From Acidobacteriota bacterium (GTDB lineage: Bacteria; Acidobacteriota; Terriglobia; Versatilivoradales; Versatilivoraceae): 64,000 nt of DNA. Where the stretch lies: contig JAPPDF010000054.1 of NCBI GenBank assembly GCA_028875575.1, forward strand, positions 1 to 64,000, read 5' to 3'. The position numbers and the translations under genes were made by a program. The notes below the pieces were generated by a model. It worked only from the letters and a program-made list of their open reading frames with translations. It was not told the DNA's origin and made no database searches. This document shows, one piece after another, positions 32,422 to 50,160 of the stretch (positions within the stretch are counted from its first letter, which is position 1; each line of letters begins with the position of its first letter).

Positions 32422-32552
32422 TCCCCGCGGCCCGGGGAGTCGCGCCCCGTTCCCCAGCCCCAGCGTCGCGGAATTTTCGAGTTGCCATGTGTGCCGACTT
32501 CGTTGCATGATTTCGGTTCGTTTGAGCGGATCTCATTTTGGGAGAGTACGAC

Positions 32553-33869
32553 GTGATCGAGAAAGGAACCGAAGTTGCCGCACCCCAGGGCAAGCTGGGA
32601 ATTCTTCTGCCGGGGATGGGCGCCGTGGCGTCCACCTTCATTGCCGGAGTCGAGGCCATTCGCCGGCAAAAGGCTCCACCGATCGGGTCCCTCACCCAGA
32701 TGGGAACGGTCCGGTTGGGCAAGCGCACCGAAAAACGGGTGCCCTTGATCAAGGACTTCGTCCCCCTGGCTTCGCTGAATGACCTGGTCTTCGGCGGCTG
32801 GGACATTCACGGGGAGTCCTGCTACGAGACGGCCGTTCGCTCCGGGGTGCTGGACCCCCGGCAACTGGAAGAACTGCGGCCGCACTTGGAGGAGATCCGC
32901 CCCTGGAAGGCAGTCTTCAGTCGCAAGTACGTCAAGCGCCTGTCGGGACGCCACGTCAAGAGAGCCGCCAACAAGCGCCAACTGGCCCTGGCGGTCATGA
33001 AGGACATCGAGCAGTTCCGGAAGACCCACGATCTGAGCCGCCTGGTGATGATCTGGTGCGGAAGCACCGAAGTATTCCTGAAGCCCAGCGAGGTCCACTC
33101 CAGTCTGGCCAGGTTCGAAAAGGGACTGGAGGAGAACGACCCCAGGATCTCCTCCAGCATGATCTACGCCTACGCCGCCCTTTCGATGGGAATCCCCTAT
33201 GCCAACGGGGCTCCCAATCTGTCGGCCGACATTCCGGCCATGCTGGAACTGGCCAGGAAGAACAAGGTCCCCGTTTGCGGCAAGGACTTCAAGACCGGGC
33301 AGACGCTCATGAAGACCATCATTGCTCCCGGACTGAAGTCCCGGCTCATCGGCCTGGCCGGCTGGTACTCCACCAACATCCTCGGCAATCGGGACGGCGA
33401 GGTGTTGGACGAACCGCAGTCATTCAAGACCAAGGAGGAGACCAAGCTTTCGGTGCTGGATCAAATCCTGCAGCCCGGCATCTACCCCGAGCTCTACGGG
33501 GACTATCACCACCAGGTGCGCATCAACTACTACCCGCCGCGTGGAGACAACAAGGAGGGATGGGACAACGTGGATATCTTCGGGTGGCTGGGGTACCCCA
33601 TGCAGATCAAGGTGAACTTTCTCTGCCGGGACAGCATCCTGGCGGCTCCCCTCTGCCTGGACCTGGCCCTGTTCCTGGACCTGGCCAAACGCGCCGGAAT
33701 GCACGGGATTCAGGAGTGGCTGTCCTTCTACTTCAAGAGCCCTCAATGCGCGCCGGAACTCTACCCCGAACACGACATCTTCATCCAGCTCATGAAGCTC
33801 AAGAACACCCTGCGGTACCTGAAGGGTGAGGAGATGATCACCCACCTCGGCGTGGAGTACTATGACTGA
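32553..33869 (+). CDS. ino1: myo-inositol-1-phosphate synthase
   Basis: The product has 438 residues from the GTG at 32553, which has GGGAGA 7 bases upstream; a TTG at 32538 has none. The NAD-binding loop is 'GKLGILLPGMGAVASTFIAGVEA'. 'MIWCGSTEVF', 'NGAPNLSADIPAM', 'CGKDFKTGQTLMKT' and 'GWYSTNILGNRDGEVLD' are the conserved blocks of bacterial/archaeal MIPS enzymes, including the active-site lysines. It turns glucose-6-phosphate into inositol-3-phosphate for phosphoinositides or compatible solutes. Its closeness to a lipid-gene cluster 2.4 kb downstream suggests inositol lipids, which is inference. Confidence 0.92.
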   Translation: MIEKGTEVAAPQGKLGILLPGMGAVASTFIAGVEAIRRQKAPPIGSLTQMGTVRLGKRTEKRVPLIKDFVPLASLNDLVFGGWDIHGESCYETAVRSGVLDPRQLEELRPHLEEIRPWKAVFSRKYVKRLSGRHVKRAANKRQLALAVMKDIEQFRKTHDLSRLVMIWCGSTEVFLKPSEVHSSLARFEKGLEENDPRISSSMIYAYAALSMGIPYANGAPNLSADIPAMLELARKNKVPVCGKDFKTGQTLMKTIIAPGLKSRLIGLAGWYSTNILGNRDGEVLDEPQSFKTKEETKLSVLDQILQPGIYPELYGDYHHQVRINYYPPRGDNKEGWDNVDIFGWLGYPMQIKVNFLCRDSILAAPLCLDLALFLDLAKRAGMHGIQEWLSFYFKSPQCAPELYPEHDIFIQLMKLKNTLRYLKGEEMITHLGVEYYD

Positions 33870-33975: not shown

Positions 33976-34629
33976 TCACCCGTATCGGGCAATGAATTCC
34001 GGAAGTTCTTCCAGCTTCAGCCTGGAGGAATGATCCTGAATTTCAGCGCGACTATCGGCGATTCCCTTGCTGCCGATCGCACTCTCCAGACCGGCGATCT
34101 CTTCCTGAGCCACCAGTTGCGGCGGCATCTGCCTGAGCGCGGACAGGACCCCTTGCCAGGCCAGCCAGTGGCTGAAGGTCCTCAGGGCCGGGTAGTAAAA
34201 AAACAGGTTCGGTCCGGGAATGGGGACCAGCACGGGAGCCAGAGGCACCATCCCAAGGGCCAGCAGACCGTCGAAGACCATCCAGACCCCATGACGAATT
34301 CTCTGGACCACCAGTAGCGACTTCAGCCTGGCCCGCGCCTCCGATTCCGATAGGGAGGAGGAGTAGTGCACCCGCATGGGTCCGGCATCGCGCATGCGCT
34401 TGAATACCCGTTCCATGGGATCGAGCCGGTTCTGCAGTTCGTAGTACCCGTCCCGGACGGCGCGGATCAGACGGCTCATGGCCGTCGCCCACCACACTCC
34501 CCGCTCGGCCAGGCCCCCAATGATACGGTCGACTCGGTCCTGCGAGCGGCCCGCTTCCCCCTCGGGGAGTGGCGGGTCCTCGGCATACAGGACCCAGCGT
34601 TTCCCTATTTGAATGAGATAGGAATCCAT
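33976..34629 (-). CDS. conserved protein, possibly Mit_KHE1 (K+/H+ exchange-related) like
   Basis: The product has 217 residues and no signal peptide. 'HYSSSLSESEARARLKSLLVVQRIRHGVWMVFDGLLALGMVPLAPVLVPIPGPNLFFYYPALRTFSHWLAWQGV' contains two hydrophobic segments separated by a Pro-rich turn. This resembles the mitochondrial K+-H+ exchange-related family (PF10173), which has scattered bacterial members. The assignment is from pattern memory and tentative. The N-terminal 95 residues are basic and helical. It is transcribed in the same direction as the di-haem peroxidase upstream, 110 bases apart. Confidence 0.5.
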   Translation of the reverse strand: MDSYLIQIGKRWVLYAEDPPLPEGEAGRSQDRVDRIIGGLAERGVWWATAMSRLIRAVRDGYYELQNRLDPMERVFKRMRDAGPMRVHYSSSLSESEARARLKSLLVVQRIRHGVWMVFDGLLALGMVPLAPVLVPIPGPNLFFYYPALRTFSHWLAWQGVLSALRQMPPQLVAQEEIAGLESAIGSKGIADSRAEIQDHSSRLKLEELPEFIARYG

Positions 34630-34741
34630 TGAGATTCCTGCCGGGCGGCCGAAGCTCTCACCGGCAAGAAAGCAGGCGGGCCCCGATGGTTGAAGCCCGC
34701 ATTCGTGGGGTGGGCATGACGACGGTTGATCCGGTCGTCGC

Positions 34742-35794
34742 TTACTCGGGCAGCTTGGGTTCGGTCAGTTGACAGTCGTTGTTCAGTGACCCCAAGAAGG
34801 CAATCAGATTCTTCTTTTCGTCGTCGGTAGCCTTCCGCTTCTTGAGATTGGTGCGGTCCAGATACTTGTTGGGCTTGCCTCCTCCGATCATCAGGTCCAC
34901 GGCCTCTTCCAGGGTGGCCACGCTGCCATCGTGAAAATAGGGACCCGACTTGGCGATATCCCGCAGGGTCGGGGTCTTGAAGGCCCCTGTGTCCTCCTCC
35001 TTGTCGGTGACCTTGAACCTCCCGACGTCCGGCTTTTCGGCGTCCATTCCGATGCCCACATTGTGGTACTGCTGATCGGTGAAGAGGACCCCGTCGTGAC
35101 AGTTGGTACACTCCAACTTCTTGAATACTTCGTAGCCTTTCTTGACCTCATCGCTCACTGCCGTTTCGTCCCCGGCCCGCCACCGGTCGAATGGAGTGTT
35201 TCCGCTGATGATGGTCCGTTCAAAGGCGGAAATGGCCTGGACGATCCGTTCAGGGGTCGCCTCGCCTCCAAACACCGTTTGAAACTGAGCCCGATAGCCT
35301 GAGACGGCATTGATGGTGGCGGTGGCGACCTCCACGTCGGCTCCCATGTTGCCGCCCTTCCAGGCCGCCATGGCCTGCTTTTCCAGGGAGCCGCTGCGAC
35401 CATCCCAATAGAACTCGGAGTGGTATCCGATGTTCCAGAGAGTCGGACTGGCGCGCGTGAGCTTCTTGTTCAGAGCCCCAATGGCCGTGGGCAGACCATC
35501 CGTCAACCCGTTTTCGCACAGATGGCAGGAGTAGCAGGAACGGGATCCATCCGCGCTGAGGCGCTTGTCGAAAAACAGTTGGCGTCCGAGGGCGACCTTC
35601 TCCGGCGTCATGGGGTTGTCCTCCGGAATCTTCATCTCCTCGTAGGTCGCCAATTGCTCGGGCAAGGGCAGGATCTCCGGCTGATACTCCGGAGCCGGCG
35701 GTTCACCGGGGGCGCATCCCGTCAGGGACACACCCAGAAGGAAACCGATCGCCAGAGAGATAGCAACAGGGCTCAATGGATGCATGGACCGCAT
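34742..35794 (-). CDS. di-haem cytochrome c peroxidase / MauG-family lipoprotein
   Basis: The product has 350 residues from the ATG at 35794 (AGGAGG 4 bases upstream). The lipobox L24-T-G-C27 indicates a membrane-anchored lipoprotein. The first haem motif is C87-x2-C90-H91 (SCYSCHLC) and the second 'CTNCHDGVLFTDQQYHNVGIGMD'. The body matches bacterial di-haem peroxidases ('MTPEKVALGRQLFFDKRLSADG', 'GAFKTPTLRDIAKSGPYFHDGSVATLEEAVDLM'). It reduces peroxide or carries out MauG-like oxidations in the periplasm. A third cysteine follows the first haem (HLCENG). Confidence 0.9.
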   Translation of the reverse strand: MRSMHPLSPVAISLAIGFLLGVSLTGCAPGEPPAPEYQPEILPLPEQLATYEEMKIPEDNPMTPEKVALGRQLFFDKRLSADGSRSCYSCHLCENGLTDGLPTAIGALNKKLTRASPTLWNIGYHSEFYWDGRSGSLEKQAMAAWKGGNMGADVEVATATINAVSGYRAQFQTVFGGEATPERIVQAISAFERTIISGNTPFDRWRAGDETAVSDEVKKGYEVFKKLECTNCHDGVLFTDQQYHNVGIGMDAEKPDVGRFKVTDKEEDTGAFKTPTLRDIAKSGPYFHDGSVATLEEAVDLMIGGGKPNKYLDRTNLKKRKATDDEKKNLIAFLGSLNNDCQLTEPKLPE

Positions 35795-35896
35795 GACTCC
35801 TCCTCGACTCTGCTTGACGTTAATCCTGGTTCCAGACCACTTGGCTGGAGTTCCCGGGACGCTCCCGGGGTCGGCGGGACGGCGCTCCAATCTCAA

Positions 35897-36268: not shown

Positions 36269-38605
36269 TTGCAGAACACCATTGATAAGCCTGGAAAGCT
36301 CGCCTTCGTGAGTGCCGACGGGGGGCTGTTCCGGGTCAACTCCTCCAGACTGGCTGCCCACTACGCCAGCAACTCCCAGACGTTTGCGGGTCGAATCCAC
36401 CGCCTGCTGGGCGTTGCTCTGATGCGTTCCATCCACCTGATCGTGGGTATCTGGAATCCGCGGCTGGCCACTCGACTGATTCACCTGCCCCTGAGGGGCA
36501 CCAGCCGGGACCGCCTGGACCTGCTGGGCGAAGAATATTTCCAGTACAAGCTGCGAAACCATCTCGAGCCCCAAGGGGTTGAGGCCATAAAGCAGTTGAG
36601 CGCCGACGGAAACCAGGTGGTGCTGGTCAGCCGCGAACTGGACCACCTCCTCCGTCCCCTGGCCCAGCACCTGGGTGTCCGGAACCTGGTCTCCAACCGT
36701 TTGGAGTTTCGGGACGGGCTGGCCACCGGGCGCCTGCATTCACCCATCATCCCCGACACCCTGCAACCCGAGCCGAACCGGGCACCGTTCGGCACACAGA
36801 GTTTTCTCATCGACGGCCTGCCCGGGCTTTCCTCCCGCGCATTGGAACCGCACATCCAGGCCACCGCCCGGCAAACCAGGAGCCCCGCGCCTCCGGTGGT
36901 GGATTTCCACCGGCGCCGGGCCAGCGCCGAGATTGTGTCAGTACGCCAGGCCCTTTCCGGCAAGCACATTCTGCTGATCGGCGGGACGGGATTCATCGGC
37001 AAGGTCTGGCTGTCCATGCTGCTGGAAGACCTTCCGGAGATCGGAAGGATCTACCTGCTGATTCGACGGCAGGGCTCGCGCAGCGCCCTGCAGCGCTTCG
37101 AGAAGATCGTCGCCGAATCTCCCGCGTTCGCTCCCCTTCATGAACGCTTCGGCGACCGACTGCCCCGGATGCTCATGGACCGGGTGGAAGTACTGGAGGG
37201 AGACATCGGGGATCCCGACCTGGGACTGAACGAAGCCACCCTGGAGCGCCTGATCCGGGATCTGGACCTGGTGGTCAATTCCGCCGGCCTCACCGATTTC
37301 AATCCGGACATCCGCCTGGCCATGACCACCAACGTGGACAGCGTCATGGGCCTGATCGGCTTTCTGAAGCGCTGCCGACGGGCCGCCCTGCTGCATGTCT
37401 CCACCTGTTTCGTCAACGGCCGCATCGACGGGCGGGTTTCGGAGGAGCTGCTTCCCAACTACACTCCCGCCGGTCGAGCCGATTTCGACGTCTACGAGGA
37501 ACACCGGTTGGTCCATCAAGCCATTGAGCGCATCACCGGGGAAGGAGACAGCCAGGCGGTAACGGACGAAGTCCAGGCCCGGGTCTCTGACCGCAAGCCC
37601 AATGTGAGCGACCCTTCACGCCTGGTTCGCAAGGAGCGCACCCGCTGGATTCGCGATCGCGGAATCGAATTCGGGATCGAGAGAGCACAGCACTGGGGCT
37701 GGCCCAACATCTACACCTTCACCAAGAGCCTGGGAGAATCGCTGCTGGCTACCCAGGATCTTCCCATTGCCGTGGTCAGACCCTCGATCGTGGAGTCCTC
37801 CATCAGTCAACCGTTTCGGGGATGGAACGAGGGCGTCAACACGACGGCACCGCTCTCCTATCTGTTGAGCACCTACTTCCGGCAACTCCCCTCCAACAAG
37901 CGCAAGCGCCTGGATGTCATCCCGGTCGACCTGGTGTGCCGCGGACTCACCCTGGTGGCGGCAGCCCTGGTCGAGCGGCGTCACGACAGGGTCTACCAAC
38001 TGGCGACCTCGGCCACCAATCCCGCCGACATGCGCCGGACCATCGAGCTGACCGGCCTGGCCCATCGCAAGTACTATCGGTCCCTGGAAGGCCTGGAGCA
38101 CTGGCTCCGAGCCCGCTTCGACACCATTCCGGTCTCCCAGGCCCGCTACCGGAACGTTTCCCTCCCCCGCCTGAAGACCCTGCTTGAGGGTCTTCAGCGT
38201 GTGACCGGGGTGCTCCCCGTCAAGAACGACAGCCTCGCCCGAAAGCAACGCGCCCTGGACCGGGTCCACAAGGTCATTGAGCTCTACCAGCCCTTCATTC
38301 TGGACAACGAGTACTTCTTTGCCGCCGACAATATTCGAAAACTGGGAGCGGCCTTACCCGGCGATGAAGTCGCCGATTTCGGATACCATCCGGAAAACAT
38401 CGACTGGTACGACTACTGGGTGAACCTGCACGTGCCGGCGTTGCGCCGCTGGACCTATCCCATCATCGAAGGGCGCCGTCCCGACACCGGCCTGCTCCCC
38501 CGCAACTTCAAGCTGGAGCCCGCCCACGCCTCAGCGGCAACCGCCAGCGCCCCCGCAGACCCGATGGGCGGCAGGGTCTACCATGCCCGGCCGAGCCAGG
38601 GCTAG
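36269..38605 (+). CDS. fatty-acyl reductase with N-terminal degenerate HAD-like domain
   Basis: The product has 778 residues. Residues 10-205 look like a HAD-IB phosphatase (VSADGGLFRVNSS, 'VVLVSRELDHLLRPLAQHLG', 'GLATGR'), but the nucleophile Asp of DxDGT is Ser and the late DD motif is lost. Residues 228-600 are a fatty-acyl-CoA reductase / thioester-reductase Rossmann domain: 'LLIGGTGFIGKVWLSMLLEDLP' for NADPH, 'LLHVSTCFVNG', and Y-x3-K in 'IYTFTKSLGESLL'. Residues 600-745 form the C-terminal FAR domain. The enzyme should reduce acyl-CoA or acyl-ACP to aldehyde or alcohol. It is the first gene of the lipid cluster, 3 bases before the next gene. Confidence 0.85.
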   Translation: MQNTIDKPGKLAFVSADGGLFRVNSSRLAAHYASNSQTFAGRIHRLLGVALMRSIHLIVGIWNPRLATRLIHLPLRGTSRDRLDLLGEEYFQYKLRNHLEPQGVEAIKQLSADGNQVVLVSRELDHLLRPLAQHLGVRNLVSNRLEFRDGLATGRLHSPIIPDTLQPEPNRAPFGTQSFLIDGLPGLSSRALEPHIQATARQTRSPAPPVVDFHRRRASAEIVSVRQALSGKHILLIGGTGFIGKVWLSMLLEDLPEIGRIYLLIRRQGSRSALQRFEKIVAESPAFAPLHERFGDRLPRMLMDRVEVLEGDIGDPDLGLNEATLERLIRDLDLVVNSAGLTDFNPDIRLAMTTNVDSVMGLIGFLKRCRRAALLHVSTCFVNGRIDGRVSEELLPNYTPAGRADFDVYEEHRLVHQAIERITGEGDSQAVTDEVQARVSDRKPNVSDPSRLVRKERTRWIRDRGIEFGIERAQHWGWPNIYTFTKSLGESLLATQDLPIAVVRPSIVESSISQPFRGWNEGVNTTAPLSYLLSTYFRQLPSNKRKRLDVIPVDLVCRGLTLVAAALVERRHDRVYQLATSATNPADMRRTIELTGLAHRKYYRSLEGLEHWLRARFDTIPVSQARYRNVSLPRLKTLLEGLQRVTGVLPVKNDSLARKQRALDRVHKVIELYQPFILDNEYFFAADNIRKLGAALPGDEVADFGYHPENIDWYDYWVNLHVPALRRWTYPIIEGRRPDTGLLPRNFKLEPAHASAATASAPADPMGGRVYHARPSQG

Positions 38606-38608
38606 CAC

Positions 38609-39735
38609 ATGGGCATCTTCCTCACGGGATCCACAGGTTACCTCGGCGCTCACATTGCCAGCGAGTTGCTGGAAAAACACCACCAACGCCTCATTCTTCT
38701 GGTTCGGGCCCCCAACCGCGAAGCCGCGGCCCAGCGCCTTTGGCGAGCCTTTCAGCTGCACCTGGACTTCGACCGCTTCCACCACCACCTGAATACCGGT
38801 ATCGAGGTGCTGACCGGCGACCTCACTGAAGAAGGATTCGGCTTCAGTCCGGACCAGTATCGCCACCTGGTCAAGAACGCCGATTCAATCCTGCATGTGG
38901 CGGCCTCTCTCAACCGCAAATCGGAAAAATCCTGCCTGAACATCAATCTTCGAGGGACCCTGGAAGTCGTCAAGCTGGCCCAAGCCATCTCCGCGGACCA
39001 CGGCCTGAAGCGATTCAGCCACATCAGCACGGTGGCGGTGGCTGGATTCCGCCAGGATGAAGTCGTCGAGGAAGAGCAGGCCATTGACTGGAACCGGTCC
39101 GACTACGATCCCTACGCCCGCACCAAGAAGTTCTGCGAACACCTGATCCGGGAGCTTTTGCCGGAAACTCCGCTGACCATATTTCGCCCCAGCATCGTGC
39201 TGGGCGACAGCCGGCGGGCGGAGACCACCCAGTTCGACATGGTCCAGGCCTTCGCCTTCCTGGCGGGGCTGCCACTGCTGCCACTGCGGGCCGGCGACCG
39301 CCTGGACATCGTCAACGTGGACTTCGTGGCCGAGGCGGTGGCGAATCTGCACCAGAAAGAGAGTCCCCGCTTCGACACCTACCATCTTTCTTCCGGCAGA
39401 AGCTCCCCCACCTGCCAGGACATTACCAACGCCTTGAGCGCCGTCCGAAATCGCCGCCGGCCCACCTACGCTCCCTCGCTGATCCGCCCCGTCAACTCCC
39501 TGGTGGGCTGGCTGGCCCGGCGCCGGGGAACTTCGGTGGGCTATCTGGCCAGCCTCATGCAGGTCTTTCTTCCATACCTGCATTGGAACACGGTCTTCGA
39601 CAACAGCCGGGTGGTGCGGGAAACGGGAACAAGCCCCGCATCTTTCACCGATTACTGCTATCCTCTCTATCAGTTCGCCACCAGGAACGACTTCACCTAT
39701 CCCTACCGGGAATGGCCTGAGAGGGGGGCTGCCCC

Positions 39736-39739
<4 letters not shown>
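38609..39739 (+). CDS. thioester-reductase-like NAD(P)-dependent SDR
   Basis: The product has 376 residues of extended short-chain dehydrogenase. The N-terminal 'IFLTGSTGYLGAHIASELL' is the NADP loop. 'ILLVRAPNREAAAQRL' and 'GDLTEEGFGFSPDQY' are typical of thioester-reductase (NAD_binding_4) domains rather than sugar epimerases. 'ISTVAVAG' and Y-x3-K ('YARTKKFCEHLI') complete the active site. It probably reduces an acyl thioester or aldehyde or oxidises a polyol; the substrate is unknown. It starts 3 bases after the FAR gene and overlaps the next gene by 4 (ATGA), so the three genes form a tight operon. Confidence 0.82.
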
Positions 39740-41145
<1,406 letters not shown>

Positions 41146-41389
41146 TGAGTGGATGAGTGATGAGTGAAGAGCTTTTTGGTCGATGGGTTGGGCATGGGGG
41201 AAAGGGTTGTCCACGCAGGAATACGACGGGGCGCTGAGTACTCTGGTTCATAGGCATTGCCACATATACCCGGCTGCACTCCATTAACAGGTGCGACAGG
41301 ATCAACAAGATGCTTGGCGTGTCGATTCAATCACTACCCAGCCTCATCACTATTCATCATTCATCATTCATCATCCATCATTAACCTAG
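41146..41389. repeat. spacer bounded by inverted ATGATGA-type repeats
   Basis: The left end 'ATGATGAGTGGATGAGTGATG' (41143-41163, degenerate) and the right end 'CATCACTATTCATCATTCATC' (41343-41363, continuing CATCCATCATT) are inverted, low-complexity pairs. A 180-base unique centre contains no gene. It looks like a small mobile or structured element inserted between operon genes. Confidence 0.5.
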
Positions 41390-43057
41390 ATGAACTTTCT
41401 ACAGACAATTTTCTCCAATCTCTCCCGGAGCCCTCAGAAAACGGTCCTGCAAGAGGTTCGGGAGGATGGTCTCCACTCGGTCAGCGGAGCCGATCTCCTG
41501 GATTGGATCGGCCAGGCCAGACGCCGTCTGAGGGAAGCCGGACTGCGTCCCGGAGACCGCTGCGGACTGCTGGGCCCCAACAGCAGCCGCTGGGTCGCCA
41601 TGAACCTGGCGATCATGGCCGAGGGCGCCATGGCCGTTCCTCTCTATTCCCGGCAGGCCCCGGACGAACTGGTGGCCATGATGAAGGATTGCGGGGTTTC
41701 CCTGCTCTGCTGCGCCGGCCCCTCAGAAATTGAAGCCATCCGTTCCTGCTGGAGCGACCTGCCGCCCGTTCTCGATTACTCGCAGGCTCTGGTAGAGTCG
41801 GCCCCCGATGCGGGCGACGGAAGCGATGTCGTGGGCGAGGAGGCGCCAGACCGGCTGGAGGTGGTGACCATCATCTACACCTCGGGCACCTCGGGCGAGC
41901 CCAAGGGAGTCATGCTCAACGGCGACAATATCGCCTTCATGCTGCAGCGGACCACGGCTCGCCTGGAAGAGCTGATGCAGGGCGTCCCCGGGAAGGGAGA
42001 TGATCGTGTCTTCCACTACCTGCCCCTCTGTTTCGCGGGCTCCTGGATCCTGCTGCTCACCTGCCTCTATCGCAACAACAACCTGATGTTGTCGACGGAC
42101 CTCAACCGTCTGGCCGACGAGTGGAAACTGGCGGCCCCCCAATACATGCTGAACGTCCCCGCCCTGCTGGAACGGATCCGAACCGGCGTCGAGGAAAAGA
42201 TCAGGGCAGGCGGCGGCGTGGGACTGCTGCTCTTCAGCCGAGGTCAATCGGCCTGGTTTCGCCAACAGGAGAACGGGTCCCGGCCGTTCGACAGGATCTG
42301 GCTGGCCCTGGCGACACGGCTGGTATTCGCCAAGATCCGAGACCGCATCGGGTCCGGTCTGCGGGCCCTCATCTGCGGTTCCGCCCCCCTGGCCGAGGAG
42401 ACCCAGCAGTTCTTTCAGATGATCGGGATTCCGGTCCTGCAGGTGTATGGATTGACCGAAACCACCGCCATCTGCACCATGGACGACGTGCACCGGGTGA
42501 CGGCGGGCCGTGTGGGTCCGGCCATCCGGGGCATCGAAATGCGGTTGAGCGAGGAGGGGGAAATTCTGGTGAAGGGCCCCAACATCTTTCCGGGATACTG
42601 GAATCGCCCCGAGGCCAACCGGGACGTCTTCCGGGAGGGGTGGTTCCGTACCGGTGACCAGGGTGAGGTGGACGCCACCGGAAACTGGAAAATCGTGGGA
42701 AGAATGAAGAACATCATCATCACCACCGGGGGGCACAACATCAGCCCCGAGCCCATCGAGGAGCGTCTGCTGGAAGCCCTGCCGGCCTCGACCCAGGTGA
42801 TGGTGGTCGGGAACGGACGCAAGCACCTGTCCGCCCTGCTGACGGGACCGGTGAGCCGGGACGAGTCGGCTCGCGTCATCGAAGAGGTCAACCGGCAACT
42901 GCCGCACTACCGCCAGGTTCGCCGGTTCCACATTGCCGCCGAGCCTTTCAGCATCGAAAACGGCCTGCTTGCCGCCAACGGAAAGCAGCGGCGAGCAGCC
43001 ATCGAGGCGCATTTCCTGGAAGAGATCGAGGCTCTTTACCAGTCTGAAGCCCAATAG
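41390..43057 (+). CDS. long-chain acyl-CoA/ACP ligase (AMP-forming)
   Basis: The product has 555 residues of the ANL superfamily. The P-loop is 'IIYTSGTSGEPKGVMLNGDNI', the adenine motif 'QVYGLTETTAI', the hinge 'WFRTGDQGEVDATGNWKIVGRMKNIIITTGGHNISPEPIE' and a C-terminal 'ENGLLAANGKQRR' holding the catalytic Lys. An aromatic gate region (RGQSAWFRQQENGSRPFDRI) and the order of motifs resemble long-chain fatty-acyl ligases. It activates a fatty acid as acyl-AMP and transfers it to CoA or the ACP encoded downstream. A second ligase gene lies 1.4 kb further on. Confidence 0.88.
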   Translation: MNFLQTIFSNLSRSPQKTVLQEVREDGLHSVSGADLLDWIGQARRRLREAGLRPGDRCGLLGPNSSRWVAMNLAIMAEGAMAVPLYSRQAPDELVAMMKDCGVSLLCCAGPSEIEAIRSCWSDLPPVLDYSQALVESAPDAGDGSDVVGEEAPDRLEVVTIIYTSGTSGEPKGVMLNGDNIAFMLQRTTARLEELMQGVPGKGDDRVFHYLPLCFAGSWILLLTCLYRNNNLMLSTDLNRLADEWKLAAPQYMLNVPALLERIRTGVEEKIRAGGGVGLLLFSRGQSAWFRQQENGSRPFDRIWLALATRLVFAKIRDRIGSGLRALICGSAPLAEETQQFFQMIGIPVLQVYGLTETTAICTMDDVHRVTAGRVGPAIRGIEMRLSEEGEILVKGPNIFPGYWNRPEANRDVFREGWFRTGDQGEVDATGNWKIVGRMKNIIITTGGHNISPEPIEERLLEALPASTQVMVVGNGRKHLSALLTGPVSRDESARVIEEVNRQLPHYRQVRRFHIAAEPFSIENGLLAANGKQRRAAIEAHFLEEIEALYQSEAQ

Positions 43058-43391
43058 AGAGGTAATCCACGAAGAGCAGGAAGGAAAAAAGAGTTATCCA
43101 CGAAGACACACGAAGGATGACGAAGGGCCACTAAGGGGTTGGAGATGGCTCAAGAAGGTTCCGTGAAGCACCACGAAGAGAGACATTAAGGGGAAATTTG
43201 GCAACGGGATCTTTGCCGAGAATGGCCACAAGAGGCACAAAAACACAAGAAGAGTGGAGCATCGTCAGGACTCAAAACTAAAAATTCGTTTTGTGCCTTT
43301 TGTGGTGAACCCATATTTCTCACCAAGTCGCGTCCTATACGCCAGGATGGTGTCCGGCTAACCCGGCTTCGCCTCAGGCAGACCAAGCACC
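43058..43391. repeat. spacer with 'CACGAAG' and 'GGCACAAAA' repeat families
   Basis: 'TTATCCACGAAGACACACGA' and following (43093-43135) belongs to the family also found at 17305-17335. 'GGCACAAAAACACAAG' (43236-) and 'TTTTGTGCCTTTTGTGG' (43289-) form an inverted pair. No gene is visible. Confidence 0.5.
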
Positions 43392-44195
43392 ATGAACTTG
43401 TTTCAAGGAAAGACACTTTCTTACAATCTGGCCGATGAAATCTTCGAGCTGCGGCTGCACCGGCAGCCCTGCAACGAAATCGGGTCGCTGGCGCTGAGGG
43501 AGTTGGAGGGATTCGTCCAGACACTGGAGGAACAGGCGGTCCGGGCCAAGGCTCTGGTGGTCCACAGCTCGATGGAGGCCGGGTTCAGCGCCGGAGCCGA
43601 CCTCAGGGAGCTCTATTTCGGGCTGCAGTCACTCGGTAAGGCTGAAAGAAACGCCGGGGTTCGCGATTTTCTGGAACGCATCCATCGGGTGTTCAATCGG
43701 ATCGACCAGATCCCGCTGACCACGGTGGCGGCAGTTCACGGAGTCGTGTTCGGGGGAGGGTTCGAGCTGGCGCTGACCTGCGATATGATTGTGGCCGACC
43801 GCACCGCCCGGTTCTGCTTCCCCGAATTGAGACTGGGGCTGATCCCCGGGTTCGGCGGAATTCCTCGACTCAAGCGGGATCTGGGCAACGCCCTGGTCCG
43901 CGACCTGCTCCTGACCGGCCGGAGCATCAACGCCGGCAAGGCGGCCGCTGCCGGGCTCGTCAGCCAACTGGTGGCGCCGGGTCACGCCTTGAGGGCAGCC
44001 CGCGGGATCGCGACCCAGGCAACCAAATTCGACGCGCGCGCGGCTCGCGAGGCCAAGCGCTTCATCAAACCGATCCCTCACCTGGAGCTCGAAAGGGAAA
44101 TCGAAACCTTCTGCGCTCTCTTCGATCGGCCCGAGGTGGAAGCGGCCCTTCTCAAATTCGTGGAGAGCAGCCAGGTTCAACCCTATCTGCCCTGA
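43392..44195 (+). CDS. enoyl-CoA hydratase/isomerase family protein
   Basis: The product has 267 residues with the crotonase fold. 'AGFSAGADLREL' (first oxyanion loop) and 'VAAVHGVVFGGGFELALTCDMIVADRTARFCFPELRLGLIPGFGGIPRLKRDLG' (second loop) are present. The hydratase glutamates align only partly: FPE is retained, while the first Glu position is Phe/Gly-rich (VFGGGFE), so the reaction could be hydration, isomerisation or thioester hydrolysis. It lies between two acyl ligases and 17 bases before the ACP gene, implying an acyl-CoA or acyl-ACP substrate. Confidence 0.85.
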   Translation: MNLFQGKTLSYNLADEIFELRLHRQPCNEIGSLALRELEGFVQTLEEQAVRAKALVVHSSMEAGFSAGADLRELYFGLQSLGKAERNAGVRDFLERIHRVFNRIDQIPLTTVAAVHGVVFGGGFELALTCDMIVADRTARFCFPELRLGLIPGFGGIPRLKRDLGNALVRDLLLTGRSINAGKAAAAGLVSQLVAPGHALRAARGIATQATKFDARAAREAKRFIKPIPHLELEREIETFCALFDRPEVEAALLKFVESSQVQPYLP

Positions 44196-44212
44196 GCCAA
44201 GGAGACCCTTTC

Positions 44213-44455
44213 ATGCCCGCGCAAGAAGAAACCCTGAACCGGATCCTTCAGCTCGCCGCCGAGCGGTTTCAAATTCCCCTCGGCCAACTGAGCGGCGACG
44301 ACGACTTCTTCGAAAAGCTGGGGATCAACAGCCTGCAGGCGCTGGATCTGTTGACCCAACTGGAAAATCACTTTAGCATCGAGCTTCCCGACTACGAGCT
44401 CCAGGGCGTGACCGATTTTCGAACCCTGGCGGAGCGCGTGGATTCCAGACTCTGA
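44213..44455 (+). CDS. acyl carrier protein
   Basis: The product has 80 residues, four-helix acidic. The phosphopantetheine site is S40 in '[16 protein letters not shown]'; the usual DSL is NSL, a variant common in secondary-metabolism carriers. A hydrophobic helix III follows. The TGA overlaps the ATG of the next ligase (TGATG), so carrier and ligase are made together. It is therefore probably a dedicated ACP rather than the housekeeping AcpP. Confidence 0.9.
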
Positions 44456-46179
44456 TGAAGATTGCCGCCCCCGACCTGACCCCCTACCGTTCTCTGGGAG
44501 AAGCCCTGCGGGCCTCCACCTCCAAGTGGACGGATCATCCGGCTCTGATCGAAGCCGACCGCGACCGGGAAAACTGCCGCCTGTCCTACCGGGACTTCAG
44601 CGAGGCCGCCCGCCCCATTGCCGCCACCCTGCAGGCCGCCGGGTTCGTTTCCGGAGACCGGGCAAGCATCATGATGTCCAACCAGTCCAAGTGGCTCATC
44701 GCCGCCTATGCGGTCTTCTACAGCGGGGGCGTGCTGGTGCCCCTGGACTACAAGCTGAGCCCTTCGGAACATCTTGCCCTGCTGGCTCACGCCAAGGCCA
44801 AGGTGCTGATCGTCGAGTACCCGATCTGGCGGGCCTTGGCCAAGGAAATCAAGGCCGAGGACTTCAGACCCGAAACCATCCTGGTCAGCGAAGCCCCCCC
44901 GGATGCGGAACTCTCCGGCGCTCGGCGCTGGGAGGACTGCCGTCCCGATCCCGCGCCCGAGTTCGTCCCCCGCGACCGCTCGGACCTGGCCTGCATCGTC
45001 TACTCCTCGGGAACCGGCGGACGGCCCAAGGGGTGCATGCTGACCCATGACAACTACCTGAAGCAGTGCCAGTCGCTCATGACCTGGTATCCCTTCTGGC
45101 CGGGGCTGCGCTATCTCAGCATTCTGCCCACCAACCATGCCATCGACTTCATGGTGGGCTTCATCGGACCCTTCATCTGCGGAGCCACCGTCATCCATTT
45201 GAGGACGCTCCGGCCCGAATTCCTCAAGGCGGCCTTCCCTCTCTACCGCATCAACTACGTCAGCGTGGTTCCCATGGTGCTGAAGGCCATGGAAACCGGC
45301 ATGAAGGCCAAGTTCGCCGAGCTTCCACCCTTTCGACACTGGGTTCTGAACCGCCTGATCGGGATCAACCGCCTGCTGACAGCCGGCAAGCCGAGACCCG
45401 CCCTGAGCCGGCGGCTGCTACCCCAGATCCACCAGGCCCTGGGTGGAGAGCTGGTGGCCTTTATCACCGGCGGAGCCTTTGCCGACCCCGAAACCCTGCA
45501 GTTCTTCTATGACCTGGGCCTTCCCGTCGCCAACGGCTACGGCCTCACCGAAGCCGGGACGGCGGTCACCGTAAACGATCTCAATCCCTTTCGCCCCGAC
45601 ACGGTGGGCAAGCCTCTGCCGGGAGTGGAGATCCGGGTGCTCGACCCGGACGCCGACGGCGTGGGCGAGATCGCCGTCAGGAGCGAGACACTGATGCGAG
45701 GCTATCTGGACGAGCCGGAGCTGACGGCCGAGACTTTCAAGGACGGCTGGCTTCTGACCGGCGACTTGGGCCGCATGGATCCCAGCGGACACCTCCAACT
45801 GGTGGGCCGCCTCAAGAACATGGTGGTCACCGAGGGAGGCAAGAACATCTATCCCGAGGACATCGAGAACGCCTTCAGCGGCCTTGAAGTCAAGGAGCTT
45901 TGCATCTTTGCCGCCAACTTCGTCTGGAAGCGGCGTGCCCTTACCGGGGAACAGTTGATCATCGCGTTCCACCTGGAGGCGGGCAGCTCGCTGGCGTCCG
46001 AAGAAGTGTTGGAGGAGCTGCGCCGCCGGAACCGAAGGCTGCCCGACTTCAAGCGGCTCTCGGGCTACCTGATGTGGCCGGAAGACTTTCCGCGGACGGC
46101 GTCGCTCAAGATCAAACGCCAGGTGCTGGCCGACGCCATTGCGGCCCGCATGGGCCCGGAAGACGTCCGTTCCCTCTGA
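44455..46179 (+). CDS. acyl-ACP/CoA synthetase (AMP-forming), second ligase
   Basis: The product has 574 residues of the ANL superfamily: '[22 protein letters not shown]', '[15 protein letters not shown]', '[41 protein letters not shown]' and the C-terminal catalytic lysine in '[13 protein letters not shown]'. Coupling to the ACP gene suggests an acyl-ACP synthetase. '[22 protein letters not shown]' is an AAS/VinN-like substrate region. The acyl group is unknown. This is the last gene of the tight operon before a 460-base repeat-filled spacer. Confidence 0.87.
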
Positions 46180-46642
46180 GGGGCACAGGCAAGTGGAGAG
46201 TGAAGAGTGGAGAGTGGAGAGTTATTGGATAGACAGGTTAGGCATAAGCTGAATCAAGCGCTGCGCCTCCTGGCGGGAAACCGGTTCAAAGTCAAGCATG
46301 AGTCGAGAGTTGATTGACATGGATGCACAGGATATACAGGATTTTTTGGCGAGAGTCTCCACCACCGTGCGCTCAACCATCGTCCAGGCTTCAACCGGGA
46401 TTCCGAATCCCGCTCCCGAGCTCCTGGAGCCCCTCGAAGACCCACCCGATCATTGAGCGAGTCCGCTCCCTGTGCGAAAGCGTCTCGTCCTGTTTATCCT
46501 GTGCATCCTGTCTATCCATGTTCAGTAGTCCGGGAATCCGGATTCACGGGACTGGGTCGTTGTTCTCGATAGGCCAGCAATAATCGTTGTTTCACCCTCG
46601 TATGATCCGCCCTGTTGTGGGGGGCGGGGGCACGGACCAGCC
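46180..46642. repeat. intergenic repeats between ligase and lipid kinase
   Basis: 'AGTGGAGAGTGAAGAGTGGA' repeats and 'GTTATTGGATAGACAGGTTA' (46200-46260) match 17225-17290. The inverted pair 'CATGGATGCACAGGATATAC' (46318-) and 'CCTGTGCATCCTGTCTATCC' (46499-46518) is the same family as at 26238-26600. No gene is visible. Confidence 0.6.
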
Positions 46643-47542
46643 ATGAAACCCTACTTCGCCATCGTCAATCCGGCTGCCGGCGGAGGGCGCTGCGGGCGGC
46701 AGGCTCCGGCGGCCCTGGAGCGGCTTCGCTCGCAAGGCGTCCCCGTGGAGTCGGTGGAAACCCAACGAGCCGAACATGCCACCAGTCTCTGCCGCGAAGC
46801 CTACCGGAGCGGTTTCCGCCGATTTCTGGCCGTGGGGGGAGACGGAACCAGCTTCGAAGTGGTCAACGGCCTCTTTCCGCGGGAGGGTGAATCGGATCCG
46901 GTAACCCTGGGATTTCTGCCCCTGGGGACGGGGAATTCCTTTTTGAGGGACTTCAGCGACCGGGGACTGGATCATGCCGTGGAAGCGCTGGTAGGCCAGC
47001 GTTCACGCCCCTGCGACGTGATGCGCCTGACCCATGCGGCAGGTGCGGTGCACTACATCAATCTGCTCAGCATCGGTTTCACGGCGGACGCCGGAGAGCT
47101 CACCAACCGGCGCTTCAAGGGCTGGGGAGAGTTGGGCTACCTGATGGCCATTCTGAGGTGCTGGATGGGGCTGCGCTACCCCACCTTTCCCTTCCGATTG
47201 GAGGAGGAGGGAGAGACCCAGCGTCAACCCTGCACCTATCTGACCTTCTCCAACAGCCGCTTTACCGGAGGAAAGATGATGATCGCCCCTCAAGCCGACA
47301 TCGCGGACGGGTTGATCGAAATCACTCGGGTCGGCGCTATCGGACGCTGGGAGTTCGTGAAGACCTTCCCTCGGATTTTCTCAGGAACCCATATGGCGCA
47401 CCCGCTGATCTGGCGAGCCGCGGCCCCACGGGTCGAGTTCGACCTCGAGGGCCCCACGCCGGTCATGATCGACGGCGAGGTGATCGTCTGCCGACCGCAG
47501 TCCATCCAGGTCCTGCCGGGAGCTCTCCAGGTGGCGGCGTGA
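46643..47542 (+). CDS. diacylglycerol/sphingosine kinase-family lipid kinase
   Basis: The product has 299 residues. 'PYFAIVNPAAGGGRCGR' (nucleotide loop) and G65-G66-D67-G68-T69 ('FLAVGGDGTSFEVVNGL') define the DAGK catalytic domain. 'LGFLPLGTGNSFLRDF' is the second conserved block. The C-terminal beta-sandwich closes with 'PTPVMIDGEVIVCRPQSIQVLPGAL'. It phosphorylates a lipid alcohol (diacylglycerol or similar, YegS-like). It is followed by a PlsC gene 85 bases on, a logical phospholipid pair. Confidence 0.9.
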   Translation: MKPYFAIVNPAAGGGRCGRQAPAALERLRSQGVPVESVETQRAEHATSLCREAYRSGFRRFLAVGGDGTSFEVVNGLFPREGESDPVTLGFLPLGTGNSFLRDFSDRGLDHAVEALVGQRSRPCDVMRLTHAAGAVHYINLLSIGFTADAGELTNRRFKGWGELGYLMAILRCWMGLRYPTFPFRLEEEGETQRQPCTYLTFSNSRFTGGKMMIAPQADIADGLIEITRVGAIGRWEFVKTFPRIFSGTHMAHPLIWRAAAPRVEFDLEGPTPVMIDGEVIVCRPQSIQVLPGALQVAA

Positions 47543-47627
47543 GTCGGAGAGGCTCCGCAGCCCCCAGCCGCCAGGCTGTCCAATCCCCGTCAGGCAAGCG
47601 GCCTCGCCCATCGAATCGGATACTTCC

Positions 47628-48386
47628 ATGCGCCGACTCTATTTGACCCTGCGCTGCGGCCTGATCTGGGCGGTCAGCAGCCTTCACTTCTTCACCGTCT
47701 GCACCTTCCTGGTGGCGCTGGGCATCTTCGTGGACCCACGCTGGAACGACCGGCCCCAGAGGATCCTCTGCCGCAATATCGTTCGACTGGCAGGCGTCCG
47801 TTTCCGGAAACGGTGGGCCCCGGGTTTCGACCCCGATCAGACCAGCATCTTCATCTGCAACCACGTGAACATCTTCGACGCCTTTGTGGTCTACTGCGCA
47901 ATCCCTCAGTTCGTTCGAGGACTGGAGCTGGAGTCCCACTTCAAGATCCCCGTCTACGGATGGATGATGAGCCGATTCGGCAACATTCCGGTCAGCAGGC
48001 GCGGAGGCCCCTCCCAGTTCAAGGCCCTGTTGAACCGGGTCCGCTCCCACCTGCAGGATCGAATCAGCGTGGTCGTGTTTGCCGAGGGGTCGCGAACCCT
48101 GGACGGCCGGGTCGGACCCTTCCAAAAGGGCGCCTTCGTCATCGCCCAGCGGCTGGGCGCTCCCATCGTTCCCATGAGCATTTGCGGATCGTTCCAGTTC
48201 TCCCGCAAGGGAAGCTCCATGCTCTACCCCTCCCAAATCACCGTGCACCTGCACGAAACCATCCAGACCAGGGACCTGCGCCCGCAGGAGGTCCCCGCCC
48301 TGATGGAACGGGTACACCGCATCATCGCCGAGCCGGTGGCCGAGAATCTGCGGTCCCACCCCTCCGGACACGCCGGCCCCTCATAG
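47628..48386 (+). CDS. 1-acylglycerol-3-phosphate acyltransferase family (PlsC)
   Basis: The product has 252 residues with N-terminal hydrophobic segments. The catalytic H79-x4-D84 motif is in 'CNHVNIFDAFVVYC', and 'VVFAEGSRTLDGRVGPFQKGAF' is motif III. It adds an acyl chain to lysophosphatidate or a similar glycerolipid at the inner membrane. The end overlaps the convergent aldehyde dehydrogenase by six bases. The position after a lipid kinase and downstream of two acyl ligases supports a role in a dedicated lipid. Confidence 0.9.
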   Translation: MRRLYLTLRCGLIWAVSSLHFFTVCTFLVALGIFVDPRWNDRPQRILCRNIVRLAGVRFRKRWAPGFDPDQTSIFICNHVNIFDAFVVYCAIPQFVRGLELESHFKIPVYGWMMSRFGNIPVSRRGGPSQFKALLNRVRSHLQDRISVVVFAEGSRTLDGRVGPFQKGAFVIAQRLGAPIVPMSICGSFQFSRKGSSMLYPSQITVHLHETIQTRDLRPQEVPALMERVHRIIAEPVAENLRSHPSGHAGPS

Positions 48387-50042
48387 AATACGGTCACTGC
48401 GGCGGGCGTCGAGCTCGCGTCCGATCAAGGCTGGAACCAGGTCCCACTGCGAGGCCAACAGGCGGCAGGGCTGCTTCCGGAACCAGGCCAGGGCCGACCG
48501 CACCAGGGCCTTGGCCAGGCGAAGCGGGCCATCGCCCGTGACATTGGGGAGCCAGGGGTCCTCCCAGGCGAGCGGTCCCAGCCCTTTCCTTCCCAGCGGC
48601 GCCGCCAGCACCACCTTCTCCATCCGGGCCTCGTCCAGGAACCGGAAATTGTGAACCCAGCCGCGGCCGCTGGCCTGCCCGCAGCCGGGGCCCCAGGGCA
48701 GAGAGGTGGCATAAGCCACCCCCGGATAGCTGTTGATGGCCACCACCCCGTGCTTGAGGTCGCGGGCCAGCTGACGAACGGGTTGCGAGCTCGGAAACGG
48801 GGTAAACACCGAGGCGCCCAGGTCGCCCGCCAGAGCGGGCTGATTGGCCCGAGAAAGGACCCTCCGGCAGAAGTCCCTGTCGGGCAGGCTTGCCAGACCC
48901 ACCACCGGACCGAAGGCTTCCTCGCGAAAGATCCGCATCTCTTCGGTGATCCCGCTCAGGAGCGTCACCGGGAAGCGGCGGCCCCGGGCCCTCTCCCCGA
49001 TAGAGGTCACTGAGGCTCCCAGGCGGCGGGCGTCCTCGACCATGGCCGCCACCCGGAAGGACGCCGCCTCGTCGATCAACAGCCGGTCGGGACCGACCAG
49101 GCCACCCGGCCGGGAAACCAGCGCCATCTCCCTGGCCAGCGCCTGACCCAGAGCGCCCCGCAGGGATTCCGGGACCAGCACCACCTGGTAGCTGACGCAG
49201 TGCTGCCCGTTGTTGGCCAGGGCTCCGAAGAGCACCTGCCGAGCCACCTGGCCCAAATAACGTCTGTCCCGATTGACTTCAGGAAGGACGATGGCCGGGG
49301 TCACTCCTCCCAGTTCGCAGGTGACCTTGTCCTGCCCCGCGATGGCCTGCACCGCGGCATCCGTCCGTGCGCTGCCCGTCAAGTGGATCCGGTCGAATTC
49401 AGGACGCGCCGCCAACTGCGCTCCGGTGTCGGGTCCGCCCTGCACAAAGGACAAGGCCCCACAGGACACCAGGGGTTCGAACAGCTTCTCAAGGTGACCC
49501 TTGAGAAATGGAGCCTTCTCGGAGACCTTGGCCAGGACCCTCCTGGGGCCGTTGCAAAGCAGATGAAGGATGTCCAGCGCGCCAATGCCGGCCAGGTTGA
49601 AGGGCAGCAGGCAAAGGGCCAGTCCCTCTTCGGTGGGCTGCTTTGGCGGCAGGTTCAGGGAAGGACGCAGCAGGACATGCCCCGAAAAGCCGGGCAAGAG
49701 CAGGCGTTGGAATTGGTTGGCGGGAAGCAGCCGCAACGCCGGCGACCCGGCGAACTCCTCGGTGGCTATCGGCTCGGCGGCAACGATCTCGCCCAGCGAG
49801 CCATGCAGGGACTCCAGAAAGGAGGCGGTGGAAAGCAGGCCCCAAACCGCGGGGAAAATGGACTCGAACCAGACCGAGACCGGAGGCACGCCCAGCCGTT
49901 CCTCGGTCTCCGAGGCCAGGCAATCTCCCCGGGTGTAAAAGGCCTCCGCCACTTCGAACAGCCGGCCGGCCAACTCCGGCGCCGGAGTTCGCGCCCAGGG
50001 GCGGGACCGCTCGGCTTCCATGAGCACTTTCAATTCCTGCAT
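48381..50042 (-). CDS. aldehyde dehydrogenase family protein
   Basis: The product has 553 residues from the ATG at 50042; the frame opens upstream only through the tRNA gene, so a longer start is rejected. ALDH motifs are 'DRIHLTGSARTDAAVQAIAG', the general-base region 'CELGGVTPAIVLPEV' and the catalytic Cys in 'NNGQHCVSYQVVLVPE', then 'EEAFGPVVGLASL'. The N-terminal 150 residues are unusual for the family. It would interconvert a fatty aldehyde and acid, complementing the reductases of the convergent lipid cluster. Its start lies 21 bases from the end of the tRNA-Sec gene on the same strand. Confidence 0.85.
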   Translation of the reverse strand: MQELKVLMEAERSRPWARTPAPELAGRLFEVAEAFYTRGDCLASETEERLGVPPVSVWFESIFPAVWGLLSTASFLESLHGSLGEIVAAEPIATEEFAGSPALRLLPANQFQRLLLPGFSGHVLLRPSLNLPPKQPTEEGLALCLLPFNLAGIGALDILHLLCNGPRRVLAKVSEKAPFLKGHLEKLFEPLVSCGALSFVQGGPDTGAQLAARPEFDRIHLTGSARTDAAVQAIAGQDKVTCELGGVTPAIVLPEVNRDRRYLGQVARQVLFGALANNGQHCVSYQVVLVPESLRGALGQALAREMALVSRPGGLVGPDRLLIDEAASFRVAAMVEDARRLGASVTSIGERARGRRFPVTLLSGITEEMRIFREEAFGPVVGLASLPDRDFCRRVLSRANQPALAGDLGASVFTPFPSSQPVRQLARDLKHGVVAINSYPGVAYATSLPWGPGCGQASGRGWVHNFRFLDEARMEKVVLAAPLGRKGLGPLAWEDPWLPNVTGDGPLRLAKALVRSALAWFRKQPCRLLASQWDLVPALIGRELDARRSDRIL

Positions 50043-50063
50043 GGCGGGAGCTTCAGAGGGGGC

Positions 50064-50160
50064 TGGCGGAGGCGTGTGGGAATCGAACCCACCCGTCCCG
50101 ACATCGTCGCGACGCACAGGTTTTGAAGACCAGGAGAGTCACCAGACCCTTTTCGCCTCC
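50064..50160 (-). tRNA. selC: tRNA-Sec (anticodon TCA)
   Basis: 97 bases including an encoded CCA. The acceptor pairs GGAGGCG (50160-50154) with CGCCTCC, followed by G and CCA. A long D-stem (AGGGTC/GACTCT), an anticodon loop CTTCAAA, an extended variable arm (GCGTCGCGACGATGT region) and a T-arm GTGGGTTCGATTCCCAC are present. The 8/5 acceptor-T stacking and long variable arm are specific for selenocysteine tRNA. One anticodon-stem pair appears as T-T (CTGGT against ACCTG), a possible polymorphism or sequencing artefact. Confidence 0.9.

Follow-up and report, generated by a model that had tools for sequence, protein, structure and literature searches.

A conserved nine-gene set of Acidobacteriota as a candidate unfused counterpart of the elb ether-lipid operon

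Introduction

The closest described system to the locus reported here is the elb operon (elbA-E) of Myxococcus xanthus, which includes elbB (a HAD-family protein), elbC of unknown function, elbD, and elbE, a short-chain dehydrogenase/reductase (SDR) (PMC9131029). Bacterial alkyl ethers have also been proposed to arise through Ger/PlsA ester-to-ether reductases (PMC13274423, PMC10087280). There is no settled account of how ether lipids, among them possible precursors of the branched tetraethers that serve as palaeothermometers, are made in Acidobacteriota: only some genomes of subdivision 4 contain elb (PMC11868695), and ElbD is absent from Solibacter (PMC10087280). The present analysis concerns nine co-directional genes, A to I, at positions 36269-48386 of a 64,000-nucleotide stretch of acidobacterial DNA (contig JAPPDF010000054.1, assembly GCA_028875575.1), the whole of which is called the window. 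They encode a fatty-acyl reductase (FAR) fused to a HAD domain (A), a thioester reductase (B), a pyruvyl-transferase-like protein (C), two AMP-forming acyl ligases (D and G), a crotonase (E), an acyl carrier protein (ACP; F), a diacylglycerol kinase (DAGK)-type lipid kinase (H) and a PlsC-type acyltransferase (I). No earlier description of this gene set was found in the literature searched. An original prediction made from the window alone had proposed a possible dedicated lipid pathway related to elb.

Results

Protein A shares descent with the elb reductase and phosphatase

The original prediction had overlooked a HAD domain (PF12710, E 7e-11) at the N-terminus of the first reductase (A, 778 aa). 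The predicted structure of A was closest to the rice fatty-acyl reductase DPW (PDB 7eoz), which shares its fold and pair of domains with the FAR half; DPW, however, is only ~24% identical to A, lacks a HAD domain and functions in the plant pollen wall. For comparison with elb, the acidobacterial elb-like loci L070, L178, L179 and L185 and the split loci L071/L072 were used, M. xanthus sequences not being included. The FAR half of A was 37% identical over 540 aa to the ElbD of L178 and was the sole FAR match in the window's genome. In the phylogeny of FARs against Elb proteins, proposed with the original prediction, the nine-gene FARs formed a clade (100/99) sister to the FARs of split and fused acidobacterial ElbD (94/86), and both 7eoz and the divergent FAR L184 fell outside the nine-gene and elb clades.

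The HAD half of A matched the elb HADs (hhalign 99.8%, E 2e-27), and no other ElbB-like HAD was detected in the genome of the window. The catalytic DxD was absent from all 20 of the 20 aligned orthologues, being replaced mostly by R-V-E and in the window by S-A-D, and no GDxxxD region was recognizable in the HAD half of A. Judged by these residues, the HAD half is a pseudophosphatase that has lost its catalytic aspartate and become fused to the reductase.

Gene content compared with elb

Two forms of elb were found for comparison. In the same class as the window, a split operon encodes a FAR, an ACP-FAAL-PlsC fusion (FAAL, fatty-acyl-AMP ligase), PlsY, a HAD, a LarA-like protein, an SDR and a DAGK. 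Other parts of the phylum have a fused ElbD of ~1,500 aa (FAR-AMP-ACP-acyltransferase; e.g. L178) alongside a HAD, a LarA-like protein and an SDR, an arrangement like that of the M. xanthus operon. The LarA-like protein (NF052592, LarAH14/15/16) adjoins the elb HAD at L070:13803-15491 and L178:12065-13666 and, from its position, is probably ElbC.

Both elb and the nine-gene cluster have a FAR, a ligase, an ACP, a PlsC-type acyltransferase, a HAD domain and an SDR, and elb often also a DAGK. They differ in arrangement. Whereas elb has a single ElbD, or a FAR plus an ACP-FAAL-acyltransferase, the nine-gene cluster has separate genes A, D/G, F and I, as the original prediction had claimed of these activities. 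Where elb has the separate HAD protein ElbB, the nine-gene cluster has an inactivated HAD joined to the FAR, and the ligase of split elb carries a FAAL insertion that the nine-gene ligases lack. The nine-gene loci are without the PlsY and LarA-like proteins of elb (NF052592 had no match in them, and was present in L070 and L178); relative to elb, they add the PF04230 protein, the crotonase and a second ligase. Of the SDRs, B was closest to thioester reductases and the elb protein to HpnA. Direct orthology of D and G with the ligase domain of ElbD was not upheld: in the window's genome this domain was closer to another ligase than to G or D, so that only the FAR and the HAD show clear shared descent with elb.

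The window's genome also encodes a stand-alone ACP-FAAL-PlsC protein of ~1,000 aa (L083, G000:C66, 4056-7091) downstream of metK; homologues occur in the majority of the nine-gene genomes in families f1 and f6. It was considered, at C66:4194-7034, as a hidden elb and rejected because no other elb gene lies around it.

The nine-gene order is conserved, and its reductase does not co-occur with elb-type reductases in the genomes sampled

Whether the gene order extends beyond close relatives had been set beforehand as a check. In a first survey, A was used as the query against 151 genomes of the class, and full HAD-FAR orthologues (47-97% identity) were found in 49 genomes of five families. The order A-B-C-D-E-F-G-H-I, on one strand, was present in the 31 neighbourhoods inspected among these 49, some being cut by contig ends or lacking I. 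In a second survey, C was used as the query against GTDB species genomes; this gave 357 relatives, of which the best 80 loci were retained. The order A to H on one strand was kept in 80 of these 80 loci as far as the contigs reach, and 35 were complete from A to I. The PlsC gene was missing from about 13 loci of an Acidobacteriaceae-type lineage despite room for it, and L121 and L161 carried incomplete sets. In one genome (G129) the set was split, with A-D at one place and G ~145 kb away on the same contig. Conservation of the order therefore reaches well past close relatives, and the check did not refute the original prediction.

Practically all of the 80 loci belong to Acidobacteriota (Terriglobia, gp1, gp2 and gp11, some labelled Blastocatellia or Chloracidobacterium). 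The cluster is also carried by L136 (CP070763.1), labelled Latescibacterota, and by L107 (VFZK01000025.1), labelled Acidimicrobiia; a genome search placed the latter in the window's own family, and its label is probably wrong. The nearest named relative of the window is Candidatus Versatilivorator vitaminiformans, a sponge symbiont.

With up to six FAR candidates scored per genome, 49 of the 151 class genomes had the nine-gene FAR, 33 had an elb-type FAR and none had both (Fisher P 3e-7, kinship ignored). The same lack of overlap was repeated in 396 genomes of the phylum. Two families hold both kinds, in different genomes. Among 200 genomes of family f5 there was no nine-gene FAR, and 18 had an elb-type FAR; the sample of family f8 consisted of three genomes. 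The cluster appears to be an unfused counterpart of elb, either independently assembled or deeply diverged, and not a canonical elb locus.

Assessable active-site residues are kept outside the HAD domain

The YxxxK motif is kept in both reductases, A and B. In C, R176, R346, H348 and R368 are invariant and correspond, as matched by motif reading rather than structural superposition, to R148, R306, H308 and K328 of CsaB. The arginine natural to C at the last position corresponds to the K328R variant of CsaB, which is active (PMC10435577). The phosphoenolpyruvate (PEP)-binding positions of CsaB thus appear to be kept in C, for which pyruvyl transfer is predicted. The model of C had a GT-B-like fold (predicted local distance difference test, pLDDT, 84); a fold search matched only GT-B enzymes, with Pvg1p outside the top 50, and a sequence search against solved structures gave no match. 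C shares with CsaB and Pvg1p the PF04230 family, the GT-B-like fold and the PEP-binding residues, but differs from them in its length (~470 aa), in the family-specific invariant motifs CEGSMFKSKFANAL and MDERxRNL, and in the arginine at the position of Lys328 of CsaB. A diverged paralogue of C (36-37%) lies beside an unrelated patatin-like gene at L180:8485-10074; the nine-gene cluster is present in that genome too.

In E, both hydratase glutamates align with those of EchA8 (3q0j) and are conserved in orthologues, as is the serine of the ACP F (GINSLQ). G lacks the FAAL insertion, as read by eye. H keeps the kinase motif GGDGT, and among solved structures it is nearest to diacylglycerol kinases, with sphingosine kinase more distant. 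I keeps the PlsC motif NHxxxxD.

Inositol-lipid genes recur beside the cluster

The original prediction had noted a myo-inositol-1-phosphate synthase gene (INO1) 2.4 kb upstream of A. The distance was right, but two minus-strand genes intervene, encoding a Mit_KHE1-type protein and a di-haem cytochrome c peroxidase (window 33976-35896). INO1 stands beside the cluster in two families, those of the window's genus and of the unrelated L153, where it precedes A by 66 bp on the same strand. A CDP-alcohol phosphatidyltransferase gene follows the PlsC gene, tail to tail, in 23 loci; its best models were archaetidylinositol-phosphate and phosphatidylinositol-phosphate synthases, with scores below cut-offs. 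Such a gene was present in 11 of 11 genomes tried and is therefore a household gene. A phosphatidylinositol-phosphate-synthase-like gene also heads the split elb operon of L071/L072 (one genus), just upstream of the FAR, a position which hints that elb lipids too may receive an inositol head group. Inositol-lipid genes thus adjoin one of the two systems in four lineages, the nine-gene cluster in three of them and elb in the other. The suggested link to inositol is strengthened by this recurrence, which is an association found after the fact and not proof.

Gene layout of the window

Profile searches of the window proteins located all ten activities named in the original prediction (Table 1). 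The tenth, an aldehyde dehydrogenase (ALDH, J), was rejected as a cluster member: it is convergent, tail to tail with the PlsC gene, and was seen near the cluster in the window's genus and in just one other genus of the same family. Of the claimed ATGA/TGATG overlaps, those at B/C (ATGA) and F/G (TGATG) were present and the remaining junctions had none. A and B are 3 bp apart, and the C-D, D-E and G-H gaps measure 244-463 bp. Since these three gaps are mostly <100 bp in other genomes, the nine genes have the look of a single ancestral operon; median intergenic gaps across loci ranged from -26 to 73 bp. Inverted repeats of 17 and 21 nt, possibly small mobile palindromes, occur in cluster gaps (window 43226-43305 and 46321-46508). 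A promoter and terminator scan of the cluster gave a result no better than shuffles.

At another locus of the window's genome, near a contig end (L078, G000:C82:40000-53549), a type I polyketide synthase is followed by two B12-binding-type radical SAM (S-adenosylmethionine) proteins, accompanied by an 835-aa thioester reductase-sulfotransferase-like fusion.

Table 1. Features of the nine-gene locus and its neighbours, in window coordinates.
Feature	Position	Strand	Profile evidence
A: pseudo-HAD + FAR	36269..38605	+	PF12710 HAD, NAD_binding_4, Sterile
B: stand-alone thioester reductase, extended SDR	38609..39739	+	NAD_binding_4 E 2e-46; Thioester-redct best NCBIfam model
C: pyruvyl-transferase-like protein	39736..41145	+	PF04230 E 2e-9
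D: AMP-forming acyl ligase, fourth gene of conserved order	41390..43057	+	AMP-binding E 3e-60, AMP-binding_C_3
E: crotonase	43392..44195	+	ECH_1 E 8e-36
F: stand-alone ACP	44213..44455	+	PP-binding E 4e-13; Ser in GINSLQ
G: AMP-forming acyl ligase, seventh gene of conserved order	44455..46179	+	AMP-binding E 2e-72
H: YegS/DAGK-type lipid kinase	46643..47542	+	DAGK_cat + YegS_C
I: PlsC-type acyltransferase	47628..48386	+	Acyltransferase E 2e-20
J: ALDH, outside conserved set	48381..50117	-	Aldedh E 5e-37
INO1: myo-inositol-1-phosphate synthase, possible functional neighbour	32538..33869	+	PF07994, PF01658

Discussion

The sister relation of the FAR to those of ElbD, the ElbB-like HAD and the mutually exclusive distribution favour the original prediction of a dedicated lipid pathway related to elb. 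We give about an even chance to the reading that A-I form a dedicated alkyl (ether) glycerophospholipid operon which replaces elb with separate proteins and leads, most likely, to an inositol phospholipid. Under this model, D and G would activate fatty acids, F would carry them as thioesters, and A, with B, would convert the thioester by reduction into a fatty alcohol or aldehyde. A three-carbon, glycerol-type backbone would then receive the alkyl chain, H would phosphorylate the resulting neutral lipid, and I would add a second acyl chain. The alkyl-acyl phosphatidic acid so formed would enter the CDP-alcohol pathway, most likely toward inositol phospholipids. C may use PEP as donor of a pyruvyl or enolpyruvyl group, with the head group or the alkyl chain as acceptor, and an enoyl thioester of the pathway may be the substrate of E. 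The gene content, its conservation, the homology of FAR and HAD to elb, the kept active-site residues and the exclusion of elb-type FARs are read directly from the sequences; from these we infer the ether linkage, the order of steps, the acceptor of C and the head group. Also in favour of this reading, the Ger/PlsA marker PF09989 was absent from the window's genome, a Thermotoga control being positive; Ger/PlsA has no sequence relation to the nine-gene cluster.

Several points weigh against this reading. The pathway is predicted here from genes, and to our knowledge there is no cultured carrier of the cluster. Clear orthology between D or G and the ligase domain of ElbD is lacking, the nine-gene and elb FARs are deeply diverged, their mutual exclusion partly follows phylogeny, and PlsC is missing from one lineage. 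No obvious ether-bond former of a known type was seen in the cluster, alkyl-dihydroxyacetone-phosphate synthase not having been searched for. As for elb itself, the FAR and acyltransferase activities of ElbD have not been shown in vitro (PMC9131029), and elbD-positive Pontiella had no detected ether lipids (PMC11868695).

The CsaB-type PEP site kept in C, the saccharide substrates of CsaB-type enzymes (PMC10435577) and the nearby inositol genes would also suit a pyruvylated glycolipid or inositol lipid with ester-linked chains, in which C would place a ketal pyruvate on a sugar or inositol, H and I would build the anchor, and the reductases would serve another purpose, yielding a fatty alcohol or aldehyde, for example for a wax-like tail. 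This is unlikely in our estimation, as the conserved set holds no glycosyltransferase, and both the presence of two reductases and the exclusion of elb-type FARs would be left unexplained. The compact operon with its stand-alone ACP, and the crotonase adjoining ACP and ligase, recall a secreted secondary lipid or signal (a fatty aldehyde, alcohol or unsaturated acid; compare diffusible signal factor-type signalling and its crotonase RpfF). The kinase and PlsC imply a phospholipid, however, the crotonase has an ordinary hydratase site, and the broad, order-conserved distribution is unlike that of variable secondary metabolism, which together make such a product improbable. Genes for an ACP, ligase, SDR and DAGK-family kinase likewise occur in bacterial ceramide loci, and H weakly resembles sphingosine kinase 1, so that B might be a ceramide-type reductase and H a ceramide kinase. 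H is nevertheless closer to diacylglycerol kinases, and no serine palmitoyltransferase or other pyridoxal phosphate enzyme was found among A-I or their recurring neighbours; this sphingolipid-like pathway, lacking such an enzyme in A-I, was set aside as highly improbable.

A last possibility, a new route that would use all nine genes, is that C itself forms the ether bond, a 2-O-alkylglycerol being grown from PEP on the alkyl chain. C would transfer the enolpyruvyl moiety of PEP to the fatty alcohol from A to give a 2-alkoxyacrylate, which the second ligase would activate on F. The crotonase E would hydrate the alkoxyacryloyl thioester to a 2-O-alkylglyceroyl thioester, B would reduce this to 2-O-alkylglycerol, and H and I would phosphorylate and acylate it. 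No PEP-derived ether lipid was described in the literature searched, and we regard this route as a long shot.

While elb was known already, the pseudo-HAD-FAR fusion and the PF04230 enzyme and crotonase within an elb-like, unfused set appear to be new. If the nine genes do form an alkyl glycerophospholipid operon, the set would account for the many candidate producers that escape screens for fused ElbD, and membrane-lipid synthesis would gain a new kind of chemistry should a step prove PEP-dependent. A second widespread, order-conserved set replacing elb in hundreds of species would make the ether-lipid question in Acidobacteriota testable, with one operon, nine enzymes and a defined prediction.

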